Part shown: positions 8,764-60,690 of the stretch, in pieces
Position numbering within the stretch: position 1 is the stretch's first letter
How the letters are laid out: the number at the start of each line of letters is the position of its first letter
Assembly (NCBI GenBank): GCA_023079485.1
Contig: CM041083.1
Location: forward strand, 154,522,552 to 154,586,551
Origin: Archilochus colubris
Lineage: Eukaryota; Chordata; Aves; Apodiformes; Trochilidae
Length of the DNA: 64,000 nt
Direction of reading: 5' to 3'
Notes under the pieces: model-generated
Told to the model about the DNA's origin: nothing
Database searches by the model: none
Seen by the model: the letters and a program-made list of their open reading frames with translations, nothing else
Program-made: the position numbers and the translations under genes

Positions 8764-11049
8764 GAGTGTATTGAGGATAATTTCCTGATGCAGCTGGTAA
8801 ATGAGCCTACCAGGGATGGAGCCCCACTTGACCTACTCTTTACAAACAGAGAGGGGCTGGTGAGGGATGTGGTGGTCGGTGGGCGTCTGGGACTTAGTGA
8901 TCACAAAATAATAGAGTTCTCAATAATCAGGGATACAAGGAGGGTTGTCAGTAAAACCTCTACAGTAGACTTCCAGAGGGCAGATTTTGGCCTGTTCAGA
9001 AGACTAGTCCAGAGCATACCCTGGGAAATAGCCCTTGAAAACAAAGGGGTCAAGGAGGGATAGACATTCTTCAAAGAGCAAGTTTTGAAAGCTCAGGAGA
9101 AGGCTGTCCCGGTGTGCCGAAAGGCGAGCCGGCGAGGAAGACGACCACTCTGGCTCAACAGAGAGACTTTGAAGGAAATTAGGATTAAGAAGAGGGCCTA
9201 CCGGTTATGGAAAAAAGGGCTATCTACTCAAGAGGAATTCAGGAATACAGTTAAGTTATGTAGGAAAAAAATTAGAGACACAAAGGCACAACTTGAACTA
9301 AATCTCGCCACCTCTGTGAAGGATAACAAGAAGTCCTTCTACAGATACATCAGTGGCAAAAGGAGGGGCAAGGAAAACATTCATTCTTTAATGGACATGG
9401 ACGGGAATGTAATTGTCAAAGATGAAGAAAAGGCTGAGGTATTTAACACCTTCTTTGCCTCAGTTTTTAACAGTAAAACGGGCTATCCTGAGGACAGCTG
9501 GCTTCTGGAGCCTATAGGAGACAAGAATCTAAGCACCCCTCCTGCAATCCAGAAGGAAACTGTCAGCGATCTACTGAGCTGCTTGGATCCCCACAAGTCT
9601 ATGGGACCAGATGAACTCCATCCAAGGGTGATGAGAGAGTTGGCAGAAGAGCTCACCAAGCCTCTCTCTATCATCTACCAGAAGTCCTGGCTCACTGGGG
9701 ACATCCCTGATGACTGGAAGTTGGCCAATGTCATGCCAATCCACAAGAAGGGCCAGAAGGAAGACCCGGGAAACTACAGGCCTGTCAGCCTGACCTCAGT
9801 GCCTGGCAGGGTTATGGAACAGATCATCCTGGGGGCAATCACACAGCACCTGCAGGATGGACAGGGGATCAGACCCAGCCAGCACAGGTTTAGGAAGGGC
9901 AGGTCCTGTCTGACCAACCTGATCTCCTTTTATGATCAGGTGACCTGCCTGGTGGATGAGGGGAAGGCTGTGGATGTGGTTTATCTGGACTTCAGCAAGG
10001 CCTTCGACACCGTCTCCCACAGCATCCTCCTGAGAAAGCTGGCTGCCCACAGCTTGGACAAGCGTACTCTGCACTGGGTTAAGAATTGGCTGGAGGGCCG
10101 GGCCCAGAGAGTGGTACTGAATGGGGATGCTTCCAGTTGGCGGCCGGTCACCAGCGGTGTCCCCCAGGGATCAGTGCTGGGCCCAGTCCTGTTCAATATC
10201 TTCATTGATGACTTGGATGAGGGGATTGAGTCCATCATCAGCAAGTTTGCTGATGACACCAAGCTGGGGAGAAGTGTTGATCAGCTGGAAGGCAGGAGGA
10301 TTCTGCAGAGGGACCTGGACAAACTGGAGAGATGGGCTGACTCCAATGGGATGAGCTTCAACAAGGCCAAGTGCCGGGTCCTGCACTTTGGCCACAACAA
10401 CCCCATGCAGCACTACAGACTGGGGACAGAGTGGTTGGAGAGCAGCCAGGCAGAAAGGGACCTGGGAGTCTGGATTGACAGGAAGCTGAACATGAGCCAG
10501 CAGTGTGCCCAGGTGGCCAAGAAGGCCAATGGCATCCTGGCATGTATCAGAAACAGCGTCACCAGCAGGTCCAAGGAGGTGATTCTGCCCCTATACTCAG
10601 CCCTGGTAAGGCCACACCTTGAGTACTGTGTTCAGTTCTGGGCCCCTCAGTTCAAGAAGGATATTGAGGTCCTCGAACAGGTCCAAAGGAGGGCAACCAA
10701 GCTGGTGAAGGGACTCGAACACAGATCCTATGAGGAGAGGCTGAGGGAGCTGGGGCTGTTCAGCCTGAAGAAGAGGAGGCTCAGGGGAGACCTCATTGCT
10801 CTCTACAACTACCTGAAAGGAGGATGGAGCCAGGCGGGGGTTGGTCTCTTTTCCCAGGCAACTCTCAGTAAGACAAGAGGGCATGGTCTTAAATTGTGCC
10901 GGGGGAAGTTCAGATTGGATATTAGAAAGAATTTTTTCACAGAAAGGGTGATCAGACATTGGAACGGGCTGCCTGGGGAGGTGGTGGACTCTTCGTCCCT
11001 GGAGACATTTAAAAAGCGACTCGATATGGCACTCAGTGCCATAGTCTAG
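8764..11049 (+). pseudogene. CR1 ORF2 (endonuclease C-term + reverse transcriptase), one nonsense codon
   Basis: One reading frame runs from 8764 to the stop at 11047-11049 and is broken only by TAG at 9061-9063, where family knowledge suggests a Trp codon. The N-terminal part (about 99 codons) carries the SDH motif of the AP-like endonuclease ('LGLSDHKIIEF'). The second part, 654 residues counted from Met at 9085, holds the reverse transcriptase: FSKAFD (motif A) at 303-308, GVPQGS at 358-363 and the catalytic FADD (motif C) at 388-391. The C-terminal region downstream ends in 'LDMALSAIV'. In life the protein nicks DNA and reverse-transcribes CR1 RNA at the target. This copy lacks most of the endonuclease, so it cannot be autonomous even if the stop were read through. 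Shorter antisense ORFs over it are shadows. Confidence 0.93.
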
Positions 11050-26074: not shown

Positions 26075-26303
26075 TGTAGCGGGATGAGCCTTTCTTGCTC
26101 CTGAGGCTCAACGAGCTGCTGGCCTCTCCATTGCCTCACACCAGAGTGAGCTTGGTGAGCTCTCTCTGTGGGTGTGTGTCCCACCTTTATTGGCCACCTG
26201 GTCTTGCTCATGCCTAATAGGGGGCCTGTCCTAATCAGGCACAGGTGGACTCACACCCACTAATTGGCAACTCAAAGCACCTGGTTTATCTTGTTTCTCT
26301 ACA
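26075..26303 (-). repeat. LTR (3' LTR in the sense direction), 229 bp
   Basis: It contains 'caataaagg' (minus strand), a plausible polyadenylation signal. Compared with the other LTR it has about 26 extra bases near 26082-26110, including a gagcct...aggctc inverted repeat, and a 4-bp difference near 26286. Otherwise it differs at only about two or three positions. Confidence 0.85.
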
Positions 26304-26329
26304 TTACCCCCCCCCTTTTTTTTTTTTCC
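26304..26329 (-). promoter_or_regulatory. Polypurine tract of the compact LTR element
   Basis: On the minus strand this reads AGGA-rich, then twelve A and nine G, then TAA directly before the LTR TGTAG. This is the classical position of the plus-strand primer in LTR retrotransposons. Confidence 0.75.
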
Positions 26330-26342
26330 TAAAGCTTTCCCA

Positions 26343-26635
26343 GTTTGCCCTAGCTTACAGGATTTTTACACACACACATTTTTACAACACCGATTACAGG
26401 ATTTTTACACATTTTTACACATATAGCTTACAGGATTTAACCCTAGCTTCGACTGACGCACACTTATAGCTTACGGGATTTAACCCTAGCTCACAAACAT
26501 ACACAGGATTTTTACACATTTTTTTTTTTTTCCGACTGACACAAAGATATATAGCTTACGGGATTTAACCCTAGCTTACAAAGCTACAAACATACACTTA
26601 TAGCTTACGGGATTTAACCCTAGCTTCTCACACTG
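26343..26635 (-). repeat. Internal degenerate tandem repeats of the compact element
   Basis: About four copies of a 'tagcttacgggatttaaccc' type unit alternate with copies of 'acaggatttttacacat'. They fill nearly half of the internal region. No coding function is apparent. Confidence 0.8.
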
Positions 26636-26677
26636 CTGCAGCCTATGCAAACCGTTCAATGTCAGCCCAGACACTTT

Positions 26678-26872
26678 TCACAAAGTCTCTGCTTTTCCGA
26701 CTTGAGTTGTTCTTCTCACTCCTGTATCTGCTCTTCTCTTGGCTTTCCTCTGCTCAGGGGTTTTCAAAGAGAGAATCCTTATCTTGGCTTCCCTCTGCTC
26801 AGGGGTTTCCAATCCAAAGAGCTTGCTGGTCATACCTTTCAGGGAGAGTGTTAGCCCAGGCCCTTTTTTCAA
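26678..26872 (-). CDS. Short basic ORF inside the compact element (64 aa, doubtful)
   Basis: The only ORF on the sense strand lying after the putative primer-binding site. It is Lys/Arg-rich and contains a duplicated 'TPEQR(E/K)AK' motif, reflecting a DNA duplication at 26739-26815 ('ctctgctcaggggttt' occurs twice). I do not recognise it. It may be a relic of a gag start, or an open frame in non-coding sequence. No promoter or start context argues for expression apart from its position behind the LTR. Confidence 0.25.
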   Translation of the reverse strand: MKKGPGLTLSLKGMTSKLFGLETPEQREAKIRILSLKTPEQRKAKRRADTGVRRTTQVGKAETL

Positions 26873-26936
26873 ATCAGGGAGAATGTTCCTGTTGCCAGCT
26901 CCTCACACTGCTGCTTCTTTAGAAGTCTGTATGTTG

Positions 26937-26954
26937 CCCGCATTCTCCACCAAA
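26937..26954 (-). promoter_or_regulatory. Primer-binding-site-like sequence
   Basis: Read on the minus strand, 'tttggtggagaatgcggg' follows the LTR end 'cgctaca'. The TGG start and spacing of two bases are typical of a tRNA primer-binding site. I could not assign a tRNA. Confidence 0.55.
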
Positions 26955-27159
26955 TGTAGCGTGACGAGCTGCTGGCCTCTCCATTGCGTCACACCAGAGT
27001 GAGCTTGGTGAGCTCTCTCTGTGGGTGTGTGTCCCACCTTTATTGGCCACCTGGTCTTGCTCATGCCTAATAGGGGGCCTGTCCTAATCAGGCACAGGTG
27101 GACTCACACCCACTCATTGGCAACTCAAAGCACCTGTTTCTCTATCTTGTTTCTCTACA
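26955..27159 (-). repeat. LTR (5' LTR in the sense direction), 205 bp
   Basis: Direct repeat of 26075-26303, with TG at 26955 and CA at 27158-27159. It lacks the short hairpin-bearing insert of the other copy. Confidence 0.85.
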
Positions 27160-34296: not shown

Positions 34297-34302
34297 CCAG
34301 GC
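34297..34302. repeat. Target duplication of palindromic element, left (ccaggc)
   Basis: Six bases immediately before TGTAG, repeated exactly at 34947-34952. Confidence 0.85.
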
Positions 34303-34550
34303 TGTAGTGTAACAAGGCAACCAGGTGCCCCTAATTGCCAGGGAGTGGGCATGAGCTTGTGTTAAACCCACCTGTGCCTAATTAGGGCAGGCCCCCACTG
34401 CGCATGAGCAGGACCAGGGGTCCAGTAAAAGGTGAGTCCTGAAGCACAGGCTCAGCTCAGTCCTGAGCACATCTGCAGAGAGGCCAGTTGCTCTTGGAGC
34501 ACTGTATTACCTTCATTGCACCATTAGCGCTCATCACCCATAGGGTGAGG
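34303..34550 (+). repeat. Left arm of the palindrome (LTR-like)
   Basis: LTR-like sequence in plus sense, starting TGTAG and ending just after 'caccca ta' and the 'gggtgagg' stem. It pairs with 34696-34946. The polyadenylation motif is altered to 'cagtaaaagg' here. Confidence 0.8.
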
Positions 34551-34556
34551 TTTGAG

Positions 34557-34620
34557 TGGCGCAGCCAGCTAAGCACATAACTACACAACCTGAGCAATGC
34601 TGGGGGCCACGGGTTCAAGG
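34557..34620 (+). ncRNA. tRNA-like unit 1 (A and B boxes)
   Basis: A-box-like 'tggcgcagccag' at 34557-34568 and B-box-like 'ggttcaagg' at 34612-34620, with tRNA-like spacing. The cloverleaf is poorer than in unit 2. It is followed directly by 'gtgaggctctggtggcgcag', the start of the second unit. Probably not a functional tRNA. Confidence 0.45.
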
Positions 34621-34625
34621 GTGAG

Positions 34626-34698
34626 GCTCTGGTGGCGCAGCTGGCTAAGACACAGTACTGCAGTGCCAAGGCCCTGGGTTTGAGACTCCTCAGAGCCT
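34626..34698 (+). ncRNA. tRNA-like unit 2 (A and B boxes, acceptor stem)
   Basis: 'gctctgg' can pair with 'tcagagc' as an acceptor stem, followed by T8-G9, an A box 'tggcgcagctgg' (34633-34644) and a B box 'ggtttgagact' (34677-34687). After the stem come C and 'tca', where a mature tRNA would have CCA. The D and anticodon stems are weak, so I cannot assign an amino acid. Outside it, 'gggtgaggctctg' and 'cagagcctcaccc' make a 13-bp perfect stem. Confidence 0.5.
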
Positions 34699-34946
34699 CA
34701 CCCTGTGGGCGATGAGCAAAGCTAGTGGCGCAATGAAGGTAATACAGTGCTCCAAGAGCAACCAGCCTCTCTGCAAATGTGCTCAGGACTGAGCTGAACC
34801 TGTGCTTCAGGATTCACCTTTTATTGGCCCCCTGGTCCTGCTCATGCACAGTGGGGGCCCACCCTAATTAGGCACAGGTGGGCTTGACACAAGCTCATGC
34901 CCACTGCCTGGCAGTTAGGGGCACCTGGTTGCTTTGTTACACTACA
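34696..34946 (-). repeat. Right arm of the palindrome (LTR-like)
   Basis: The complement of this arm reads as an LTR of the same family as the left arm, with 'caataaaagg' intact and TGTAGTGTAACAAAG at its outer end. Confidence 0.8.
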
Positions 34947-34952
34947 CCAGGC
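34947..34952. repeat. Target duplication of palindromic element, right (ccaggc)
   Basis: Exact second copy of 34297-34302. Confidence 0.85.
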
Positions 34953-56100: not shown

Positions 56101-57097
56101 ATTTCAGCTGACATACCACCATATACAAGAAGATATAGAGGACCCAGAAACAAATTATACCTTGAAAAAAAAAGACAGGAACAATAGGTGAGATATCTTC
56201 AGTACACATGACTTTGATTCAGAAGAAATATAAATCAACCTGAGCAATCAGATTATCTCCCACCCCTCTCCCCCCCAAAAGAAATCAAAACTTGATTTAT
56301 ATATTGTACAACAGAAACCCTCACCCTATTGTTAGATTTTCCTTAACCATATGTTATAATATTTTTATTTCATGGATGAGTTTGTGTCAAAAATATTTCT
56401 ATTCTCTGATCTGGTTAATGGCAACTTGTTCAGATGTGAATCTCTCTCCAATAATAGCAGGCAAATAAAACCCTTAATAATTTCCAGAAGATAGGCAAAT
56501 CCTAAAGTACAGGGCAACAGCTTTCTTGAATAATAGTACATATTTCTATGACAGACTGCTGGTTGCTTTGTTACAGTAGTTCAATACTAATTTTCTGAGA
56601 CATGACCTTCTAAATGGTAATGGACATGTGCATCAGAATAGACGTATGAGTTCTTTTTTGCTTTGCCCTCTTCTTTCTTCCTGGTAACTGATTTACAATA
56701 TGTTGAGAAATAGAGATCCTCGTTAACACATATGGTTCATCCATAGACATTCTTTATCCAGTCATGCTTCTTCTGAGATCTCAAAATGGACCTGTTCTAA
56801 GTGACATCCCACTTGAAACAGCTGTGCAGTCTTGCCATATTGCTCTTTGTTCTTTTCTCCATCCTTTTCCTGAAGCTGTTGGGGTGGTTTTAGCTGTGGC
56901 ATTTGTAGCAGCTGTCAGAACTGCTCCTTAGTGCAGCAGATGAGTTACAAAATTGCCTGTATCTGTTTTCAGTATGTTCTATAAACCTTTGCAAGCCACT
57001 GCATATTCCAGAAATCTGGATCATCAGTGCAGAACATTGTTTTAATGGAAAAAAAGAACTATAGATTAATTTTCAAAGACAATCAAAATCTCCTCAG
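50166..57097. other. Unique AT-rich DNA
   Basis: The longest repeat-poor stretch. It contains only short homopolymer runs, such as the T-run at 53312-53341. ORFs are at most 76 codons and lack motifs. I cannot exclude conserved non-coding elements. Confidence 0.5.
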
Positions 57098-60095: not shown

Positions 60096-60613
60096 CATAG
60101 AATCTTTCAGGCTGAAAAAGACCTTTAAGTTTATTCAGTCTGACCTTTAACCTATCTCTACTAGCTTAGCACCAGTTCACTGCTAAACCATGTTTCTAAG
60201 TACAATATCTATATGATTTTTAAACACATTCAAGGATGTTGATTCAACCTCTGTTTCCCTGGGCAGCCCTTTCCAGTACTCAATAACCCTTTCTGTAAAG
60301 AAATTTTGAAACCTAGACCTTCTGTCGCCTAACTTGAAGCCATTTCCTCTCCTCCTATCACTAGATTCTAAGGAGAAGAGACTGACCTTCCCTTCATTAC
60401 AGCTTCTTTCAGGTAGCTGTAGAAAGTAATAAAGTCTCCCCTCAGCCTCCTCCTTTTCAGACTAAACAGCCTCAGTTATCTCTGTCACTCCTCATAAGGC
60501 TTTTTTTCCAGACCCTTTACCAACCTTGTTGCTCTTCTTTGGACACACTCCAGCACCTCAATGTCTTTCCTGTGTGGAGGTGTCCAAAACTGAACACAGC
60601 ATCTGAGGTGCAA
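60096..60613 (-). mobile_element. CR1 LINE fragment joined to a tRNA-like sequence
   Basis: Antisense CR1 from its 3' end ('atagaatctttcaggctgaa') to the reverse-transcriptase tail ('ctttggacacactccagcac', 'ccaaaactgaacacagcatc'). Its 5' edge, on the minus strand, lies six bases from a tRNA-Gly-like sequence. Decayed and non-coding. Confidence 0.88.
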
Positions 60614-60619
60614 AGTTGT

Positions 60620-60690
60620 GTGCTGCCCAGGGAATCAAACCCAGGTCGCAAAAATGGGAATCTTGGATGATACAATTGCACCAGCAGCAC
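60620..60690 (-). tRNA. tRNA-Gly(CCC)-like pseudogene
   Basis: On the minus strand the 71 bases start GTGCTGC and end GCAGCAC, a perfect 7-bp acceptor stem. Between them are an A box (TGGTGCAATTG), an anticodon arm CAAGATTCCCATTTTTG with CCC in the loop, and a B box GGTTTGATTCC. It follows the vertebrate tRNA-Gly(CCC) sequence as I know it, with about ten changes and one extra base in the T-stem, which makes it probably non-functional. The following 'ACAA' could be discriminator A plus a decayed CCA, hinting at a retrocopy of a mature tRNA. CR1 sequence begins just downstream. Confidence 0.75.

Follow-up and report, generated by a model that had tools for sequence, protein, structure and literature searches.

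How a short element with inverted, LTR-derived arms and a tRNA-like core came to be inserted, and whether it is a single accident or one of many, is the question raised by a 644-bp foldback with TG...CA termini (34303-34946) in the window, that is, the whole 64,000-nucleotide stretch of DNA analysed here. The element is best read as one old member of a foldback family that derives from an LTR and is non-autonomous. Its parts are as follows.

34297..34302, no strand: left target-site duplication CCAGGC, an exact match between the flanks.
34303..34501, plus strand: LTR-derived part of the left arm, the first ~199 bp common to the solo LTRs L115, L116 and L120.
About 34303-34429, plus strand: U3 of the left arm, ending near an AATAAA-like motif and followed by an R/U5-like part; ~80% identical to the LTRs of the element near 26 kb.
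34502..34542, minus strand: inner left arm, not in the conventional solo LTR; a tRNA-like origin is only suspected.
34543..34618, plus strand: tRNA-like unit 1, cut just after the B-box position; a similar TTGAG/CAGCC-type unit occurs in some relatives.
34619..34703, plus strand: tRNA-like unit 2, full length, inside a 14-bp perfect inverted repeat (34618-34631 / 34691-34704).
34704..34747, plus strand: inner right arm, not in the conventional solo LTR; contains the A-box-like GTGGCGCAAT.
34748..34946, minus strand: LTR-derived part of the right arm, inverted; U3 at ~34820-34946.
34947..34952, no strand: right target-site duplication CCAGGC, an exact match between the flanks.

The first-pass annotation had described arms of about 250 bp, more than 90% alike, with TG...CA termini and a perfect 6-bp flanking duplication, around a 145-bp core that had integrated with them as a unit, and this anatomy was confirmed throughout. 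Gapped alignment of the arms yielded 229/249 identities (92.0%), the differences comprising 18 transitions, 2 transversions and 3 gap columns. The repeat search returned an inverted pair at 34303-34528 / 34721-34946 (226 nt, 92%) and a further pair at 34529-34550 / 34696-34717 (22 nt, 91%), with a spacing of 145 nt between the arms. CCAGGC is exact on both outer flanks and differs from the hexamers of the inner junctions, GGGTGA and TCACCC, which indicates that the arms are not two separate LTR insertions. Folded as RNA, the element gave an energy of -538 kcal/mol against a mean of -251 kcal/mol for 20 shuffles. The longest stop-to-stop frame across it, of 118 aa, had no homologue at E<=1, and protein searches with two of its reading frames gave no match.

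No primer-binding site (PBS) was recognised in the window copy when the stretch following each arm, with the arm end placed beside the core, was compared with the 3' ends of 28 tRNAs, 247 and 46 of 500 shuffles being equally good. The exact pattern of arm end plus TGG had no match genome-wide, a result of little weight because the arm end used is not the conventional LTR end. A polypurine tract (PPT) before U3 is likewise absent from this copy, host sequence directly abutting both U3 ends. An LTR end at CCCACA beside the core was considered and dropped, since the conventional LTR is 323-324 bp long and the arms have only its first ~199 bp. A lone 20-nt match to the U3 tip (95%) at 56559-56578 has no similarity beyond and is probably due to chance.

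For the core, two A-box/B-box pairs in tandem tRNA-like units had been proposed. The A boxes were recovered, at 11/12 and 12/12 of the consensus, but the B boxes are degenerate (8/11 each) and no pair in the core exceeded the joint threshold, which six pairs elsewhere in the window did; the A box alone is frequent, at 218 places with a match of at least 11/12. The tandem arrangement stands for this copy, as a repeat of 32 nt (81%) at an offset of 76 bp, but is atypical of the family, most annotated copies having one unit. Two tandem units, the first truncated immediately past the B-box position, are found in the window copy (L001) and L002, while L003 has two units in opposite orientation and L039 also has two. 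The A box matched at 10-12/12 in every one of the 38 units read (a single insertion accounts for three duplicates among them); the B box of relatives, scored against a looser pattern, matched at 8-10/11.

Unit 2 resembles a tRNA beyond dinucleotide shuffles (0/200 as good), with unit 1 weaker (1/200). When 12,782 pieces of the window were scored against three sequences taken to be human tRNAs, it ranked first for each; under a covariance model built from 14 sequences taken as tRNAs it ranked third in the window (14.1 bits, E 0.052). Neither ARAGORN nor Rfam called a tRNA in the window core, which in this respect is unlike a functional tRNA gene. As a control, such tRNA sequences mutated by 5% averaged a score of 131 against their source and were detected by ARAGORN in 184/200 cases, whereas unit 2 scored at most 42 against them and was missed. 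Divergence of this order is far too great for the core to be a tRNA copy made at the time when the arms were identical.

A relative, L118, may resemble an early form of the family: a complete LTR of ~319 bp is followed by tandem tRNA-like units, one of them partial, and then by inverted LTR sequence, in which the stretch examined ends. Its first unit was compared with what we take to be the sequence of the intron-containing tRNA-Ile(UAU) gene, and was identical at 66/82 positions, part of the intron included (score 93, against 26 ± 4 for 500 shuffles); its third unit scored 69. Against the same sequence window unit 2 scored 46 (0/500 shuffles as good), unit 1 29 (11/500), the inner right arm 23 (28/500) and the inner left arm 17 (102/500, not significant), so that a likeness to tRNA-Ile(UAU) appears secure for unit 2 and L118 only. 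ARAGORN, with introns permitted, called no tRNA in L118. A mature primer tRNA would carry no intron, and the intron-like segment of L118 thus argues against such a molecule as the source of the core.

The window's own 1.10-Gb assembly was searched for relatives. The whole 644-bp element yielded 4,312 candidates, of which 40 were scored; the core motif was found at 437 places and the 23-nt arm tip at 1,629, ordinary solo LTRs included, each at up to 2 mismatches, and the reversed pattern of either gave 0. Short exact patterns had no match in viral and prokaryote contigs, as is to be expected of bird DNA. The element is multicopy, and these hundreds of core-bearing places agree with one of the possibilities raised by the first-pass annotation, a foldback family that is non-autonomous and contains pol III-type boxes. 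A total of 92 unit-bearing loci, less 15 that lay at the same place or had duplicated flanks, left 77 for annotation; the sample is non-random, for L001-L042 were those scoring highest against the window copy, L043-L072 were the 30 exact matches to the core that came first, and L073-L092 were hand-picked. Both tips were present in 57, the left only in 10, the right only in 8 and neither in 2.

Annotation of the copies gave the inverted layout together with 6-bp duplications that differ from place to place. Among the 57 two-tipped loci these duplications were exact in 40, with one mismatch in 10, two mismatches in 2 and three or more in 5; L068 and L069 have a common duplication and may be one insertion. 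A 6-bp target duplication marks ERVK-like insertion, and the ascription of the window copy to that type holds for the family. A second set of 14/77 loci, with U3 less than 84% identical to the reference (mostly ~76%), has the inverted layout too, with both tips in 7/14, and is presumably older than the main set. Eight copies with one tip or none were checked and had no clean duplication of their own except in the cluster of L018. That cluster comprises L010, L018, L038, L039 and L040 on a 32-Mb contig (C32), which have common flanks and, where readable, the duplication TGGGTG, and was treated as a single foldback insertion that has been duplicated repeatedly together with its flanking DNA. An LTR of the 26-kb type abuts the L040 copy; L040 was considered as a chimera with such an LTR, a notion dropped because its flanks are common to the other four. 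Foldback copies without the left U3 were seen at L006/L007 and L019, with no duplication found for L006 and L019; the flank of L006/L007 is RNase H-like as judged by eye.

Shorter members were found through the arm tip. Among the matches listed (100 exact tips of the 1,629 places, on one contig), all 23 of 23 neighbouring pairs less than 10 kb apart were inverted, spanning 111-564 bp. Twenty of these pairs, of 111-461 bp, were read and had duplications that were exact in 14, with one mismatch in 5 and two mismatches in 1; no unit was present in 16/20, and U3 lengths were unequal within many. L093-L096, of 111 bp each, have different flanks and one common junction inside U3 at a CCTAATTAGG-like stretch; they could be a lineage of tiny elements or mark a recurrent switch point. 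The family is a many-copy one. In its typical member a tRNA-derived core is flanked by a pair of U3 ends that face outward and belong to one ERVK-like LTR family; many shorter members are without the core.

Eight tip places without an exact partner (L113-L120, with L118 described above) were read. Three of them, L115, L116 and L120, proved to be solo LTRs, 323-324 bp long and flanked by exact 6-bp duplications, and L113 resembles a further one, with flanks ACAAAA / ACAAAG. L114 and L117 are inverted, with an exact duplication in L117 only, and L119, flagged as inverted from a weak partial match, looks in sequence like a shortened solo LTR. The LTR origin of the arms, as originally claimed, is borne out: they correspond to the first ~199 bp of the 323-324-bp LTR, while their inner ~43 bp are foreign to it. 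Solo LTRs and foldbacks with the same U3 indicate that inverted and conventional forms of one LTR coexist, and no two-LTR provirus with the foldback-family U3 was seen among the copies read.

The window also contains a compact, protein-less LTR element of 1,085 bp on the minus strand (26075-27159), with direct LTRs, TG...CA ends and the duplication GTGAGG. Local alignment of its LTRs gave 190 identities, 3 mismatches and 3 gaps, the 5' LTR being ~27 bp shorter through a difference near the U5 end. It has a PPT-like A12G9 and a tRNA-Ala-like PBS (2/500 shuffles as good). Elsewhere in the window, a LINE frame open for 661 codons (9064-11049, plus strand) encodes a reverse-transcriptase domain that we take to be of CR1 type; among the 120 matches listed, its closest proteins were from storks, swallows, cranes and ducks, with one from a turtle, which marks the window as avian. 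A tRNA-like head at 60619-60690 on the minus strand (30.4 bits under the covariance model of tRNAs) is directly followed by 60202-60612, which is similar to other LINE-like copies in the window; the two together presumably resemble the tRNA-head/CR1-tail SINE of zebra finch.

Differences between the left and right arms of a copy bear on how the second end is made. In 30 two-armed copies of the main set these numbered 88/3,722 in U3 and 219/3,424 further inward, the spans scored as inner being part LTR and part inner arm. Divergence was lower in U3 in 23/30 copies, higher in 5 and tied in 2 (Wilcoxon p 4e-5). The inner arm is also more variable between copies than U3, and after scaling by between-copy divergence the gradient was weaker, with U3 lower in 20/29 copies (p 0.014). 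The ratio of within- to between-copy divergence in 30-bp bins from tip to core was 0.27, 0.35, 0.37, 0.55, 0.38, 0.38, 0.66 and 0.77. Seven of the 30 copies have no differences in the 127 tip positions, which indicates that some insertions are recent; the old window copy has no tip-inward difference (10/127 in U3, 9/115 inward). Fresh tips together with older inner differences are expected if at each insertion one end copies the other or both are copied from one template. Letters fixed by arm side amounted to one column in ten copies, giving no clear left- or right-arm lineage.

The inner junctions differ between insertions. Nine independent insertions among L001-L042 have the left U3 joined, at or just past AATAAAAGG, to the start of the unit, through eight different junctions; those of L008 and L042 lie at the common AAGGTGAG. 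Derivation of the short left arms from one subfamily deletion was rejected because the junctions differ. Three junctions contain fillers that carry inverted unit starts of 16, 11 and 9 nt (equalled in 0, 1 and 4 of 1,000 shuffles); of the other six, four have a filler without significant inverted sequence and two have none. Losses of R/U5 in 50 two-tipped main-set elements affected the left side in 12, the right in 2 and both in 1, an excess on the left that may be an effect of choosing L001-L042 by score to the window copy.

Taken together, copy number, inversion, 6-bp duplications, the tip-inward gradient, the varied junctions and the solo LTRs with the same U3 suggest, with a probability of roughly 0.6, that these elements are foldback products of reverse transcription, each with U3 at both ends, which an ERVK-type integrase inserted and which form a family. 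The copies would be cDNAs made by the reverse transcriptase of a helper retrovirus from an RNA that could start either in the LTR (pol II) or in the tRNA-like unit (pol III). A strand reading inward from a U3 end would fold back or switch template at short complementary stretches, candidates being the GGTGAGG repeat of the acceptor stem, AAGGTGAG at the U3/R border and the CCTAATTAGG-like stretch in U3, and would then copy outward to a second U3 end; the helper integrase would insert the resulting linear, two-U3-ended DNA and leave the 6-bp duplications. Since neither a PBS nor a PPT can be recognised in the window copy, a helper template or the opposite arm is the probable source of the U3 ends. 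Counted against the foldback reading are the four 111-bp copies with one junction, as in a DNA-moving family; the six of nine junctions without significant inverted filler; the missing gradient of the window copy, its reversal in five of 30 copies and its weakening on scaling; and the absence of one or both tips from 20/77 elements.

A bolder form of this reading is tentative. It would make the family a self-perpetuating hairpin retroelement that uses a retroviral integrase, has given up direct LTRs, PBS and PPT, and in every cycle restores the second end through foldback copying that often starts from the palindromic acceptor stem derived from a tRNA, so that any strand with one U3 could become integrable two-ended DNA, down to 111 bp. 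Both strands of window unit 2 terminate in the same CAGAGCCTCACC.

That the U3 tips serve instead as terminal inverted repeats, and that an integrase or transposase moves the hairpin as DNA with no RNA stage, as in MITEs, we regard as unlikely. The uniformly inverted exact-tip pairs of 111-564 bp and the one junction common to the four 111-bp copies would suit such movement, but DNA transposition does not re-copy one end from the other, so that the lowest left-right differences would not be expected at the tips. The U3, moreover, belongs to an LTR family with normally ordered solo LTRs, and is similar to the LTRs of a conventional element in which stretches like a PBS and a PPT are present.

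A pol III variant, with an RNA running from the A/B boxes of the tRNA-like unit to the first T run of the arm and U3 added during reverse transcription, seems improbable. The A box is retained in every unit read, and the TTTT that comes first after the core, at 34819 and complementary to an AATAAAA motif, sits at the U3/R border, the very border joined to the unit start at the nine left junctions. Loci selected by the unit alone, however, lose R/U5 on either side, which weakens a model of pol III only and left side only, and the lack of a unit in 16/20 short members means that the unit is dispensable for some insertions.

A one-off hairpin of aberrant strong-stop synthesis, read through into the primer tRNA, was the other possibility raised by the first-pass annotation. 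Such a product would account for the foldback anatomy and the two U3 ends, but is very improbable given the hundreds of core-bearing places, a unit far too diverged, the intron-like segment of L118 and post-arm stretches that match none of the 28 tRNA 3' ends compared; as a mechanism, a hairpin-type step of reverse transcription nevertheless stays the best candidate. An assembly artefact, an inversion or a pair of independent LTR insertions would explain the inverted arms and nothing more, and can be dismissed on the single outer duplication, the inner duplications that were looked for with none matching, the 8% divergence of the arms and the identical layout at dozens of places with different duplications.

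Compared with known systems, the family resembles insertions by ERVK-like integrases in its TG...CA ends and 6-bp duplications, features that it shares with the 26075-27159 element along with a related U3 (~80%); unlike that element, with its direct LTRs, PBS and PPT-like tract, and unlike conventional LTR retrotransposons and TRIMs, it has inverted LTRs and, in the window copy, neither a PBS nor a PPT that could be recognised. Its ends are U3 tips with 6-bp duplications, not the LINE-type tail and duplications of a tRNA-derived SINE. DIRS insertions are not known to leave a target duplication, whereas the bird family does, and no tyrosine recombinase gene was present in the copies seen. Inverted LTRs, as found in the window copy and its relatives, are otherwise described for DIRS-1-type elements, which have ORFs and a tyrosine recombinase and whose proposed replication rebuilds lost LTR ends from complementary sequence (PMC5633606). 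The Helenus/TRIMp3 elements are short, protein-less LTR elements with a tRNA-like sequence, mostly not a functional tRNA, that are likely mobilised by an autonomous LTR element and form families in several fishes (Kojima 2024, PMC10886601). The bird family is likewise short, protein-less and LTR-bearing with a tRNA-like sequence; Helenus is described with two LTRs enclosing that sequence, a PBS, a PPT and 4-bp duplications in animals (PMC10886601), whereas here the LTR parts are inverted, the unit lies between arms, no PBS or PPT was found and the duplications are of 6 bp. The main text of that paper has no instance of bird, inverted, palindrom, foldback or hairpin. Cassandra of plants, with a 5S rRNA gene inside its LTRs (PMC10886601), is comparable as a non-autonomous, LTR-derived element with a captured pol III gene sequence. 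The family departs from the tested defining features of TRIM, Helenus/TRIMp3, DIRS and SINE and works most like a non-autonomous ERV derivative. No published inverted-LTR element with a tRNA core was found among the titles and beginnings of abstracts listed, and the family may be named in Repbase or Dfam.

The usual view of retroviral integrases is that they join one U3 and one U5 end of a cDNA with direct repeats, and inverted LTRs that still appear to integrate retrovirally do not, to our knowledge, count among the standard mobile elements. Such families may be misfiled by repeat finders designed for direct LTRs or for transposons with short terminal inverted repeats. The elements add an inverted, avian case to the LTR elements with captured pol III genes, a class named only recently, and offer a natural record of template-switch junctions from reverse transcription in the germ line. 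If insertions with two U3 ends are numerous, foldback cDNAs would be shown to arise regularly from an endogenous retrovirus, to be inherited and to be able to become a lineage.
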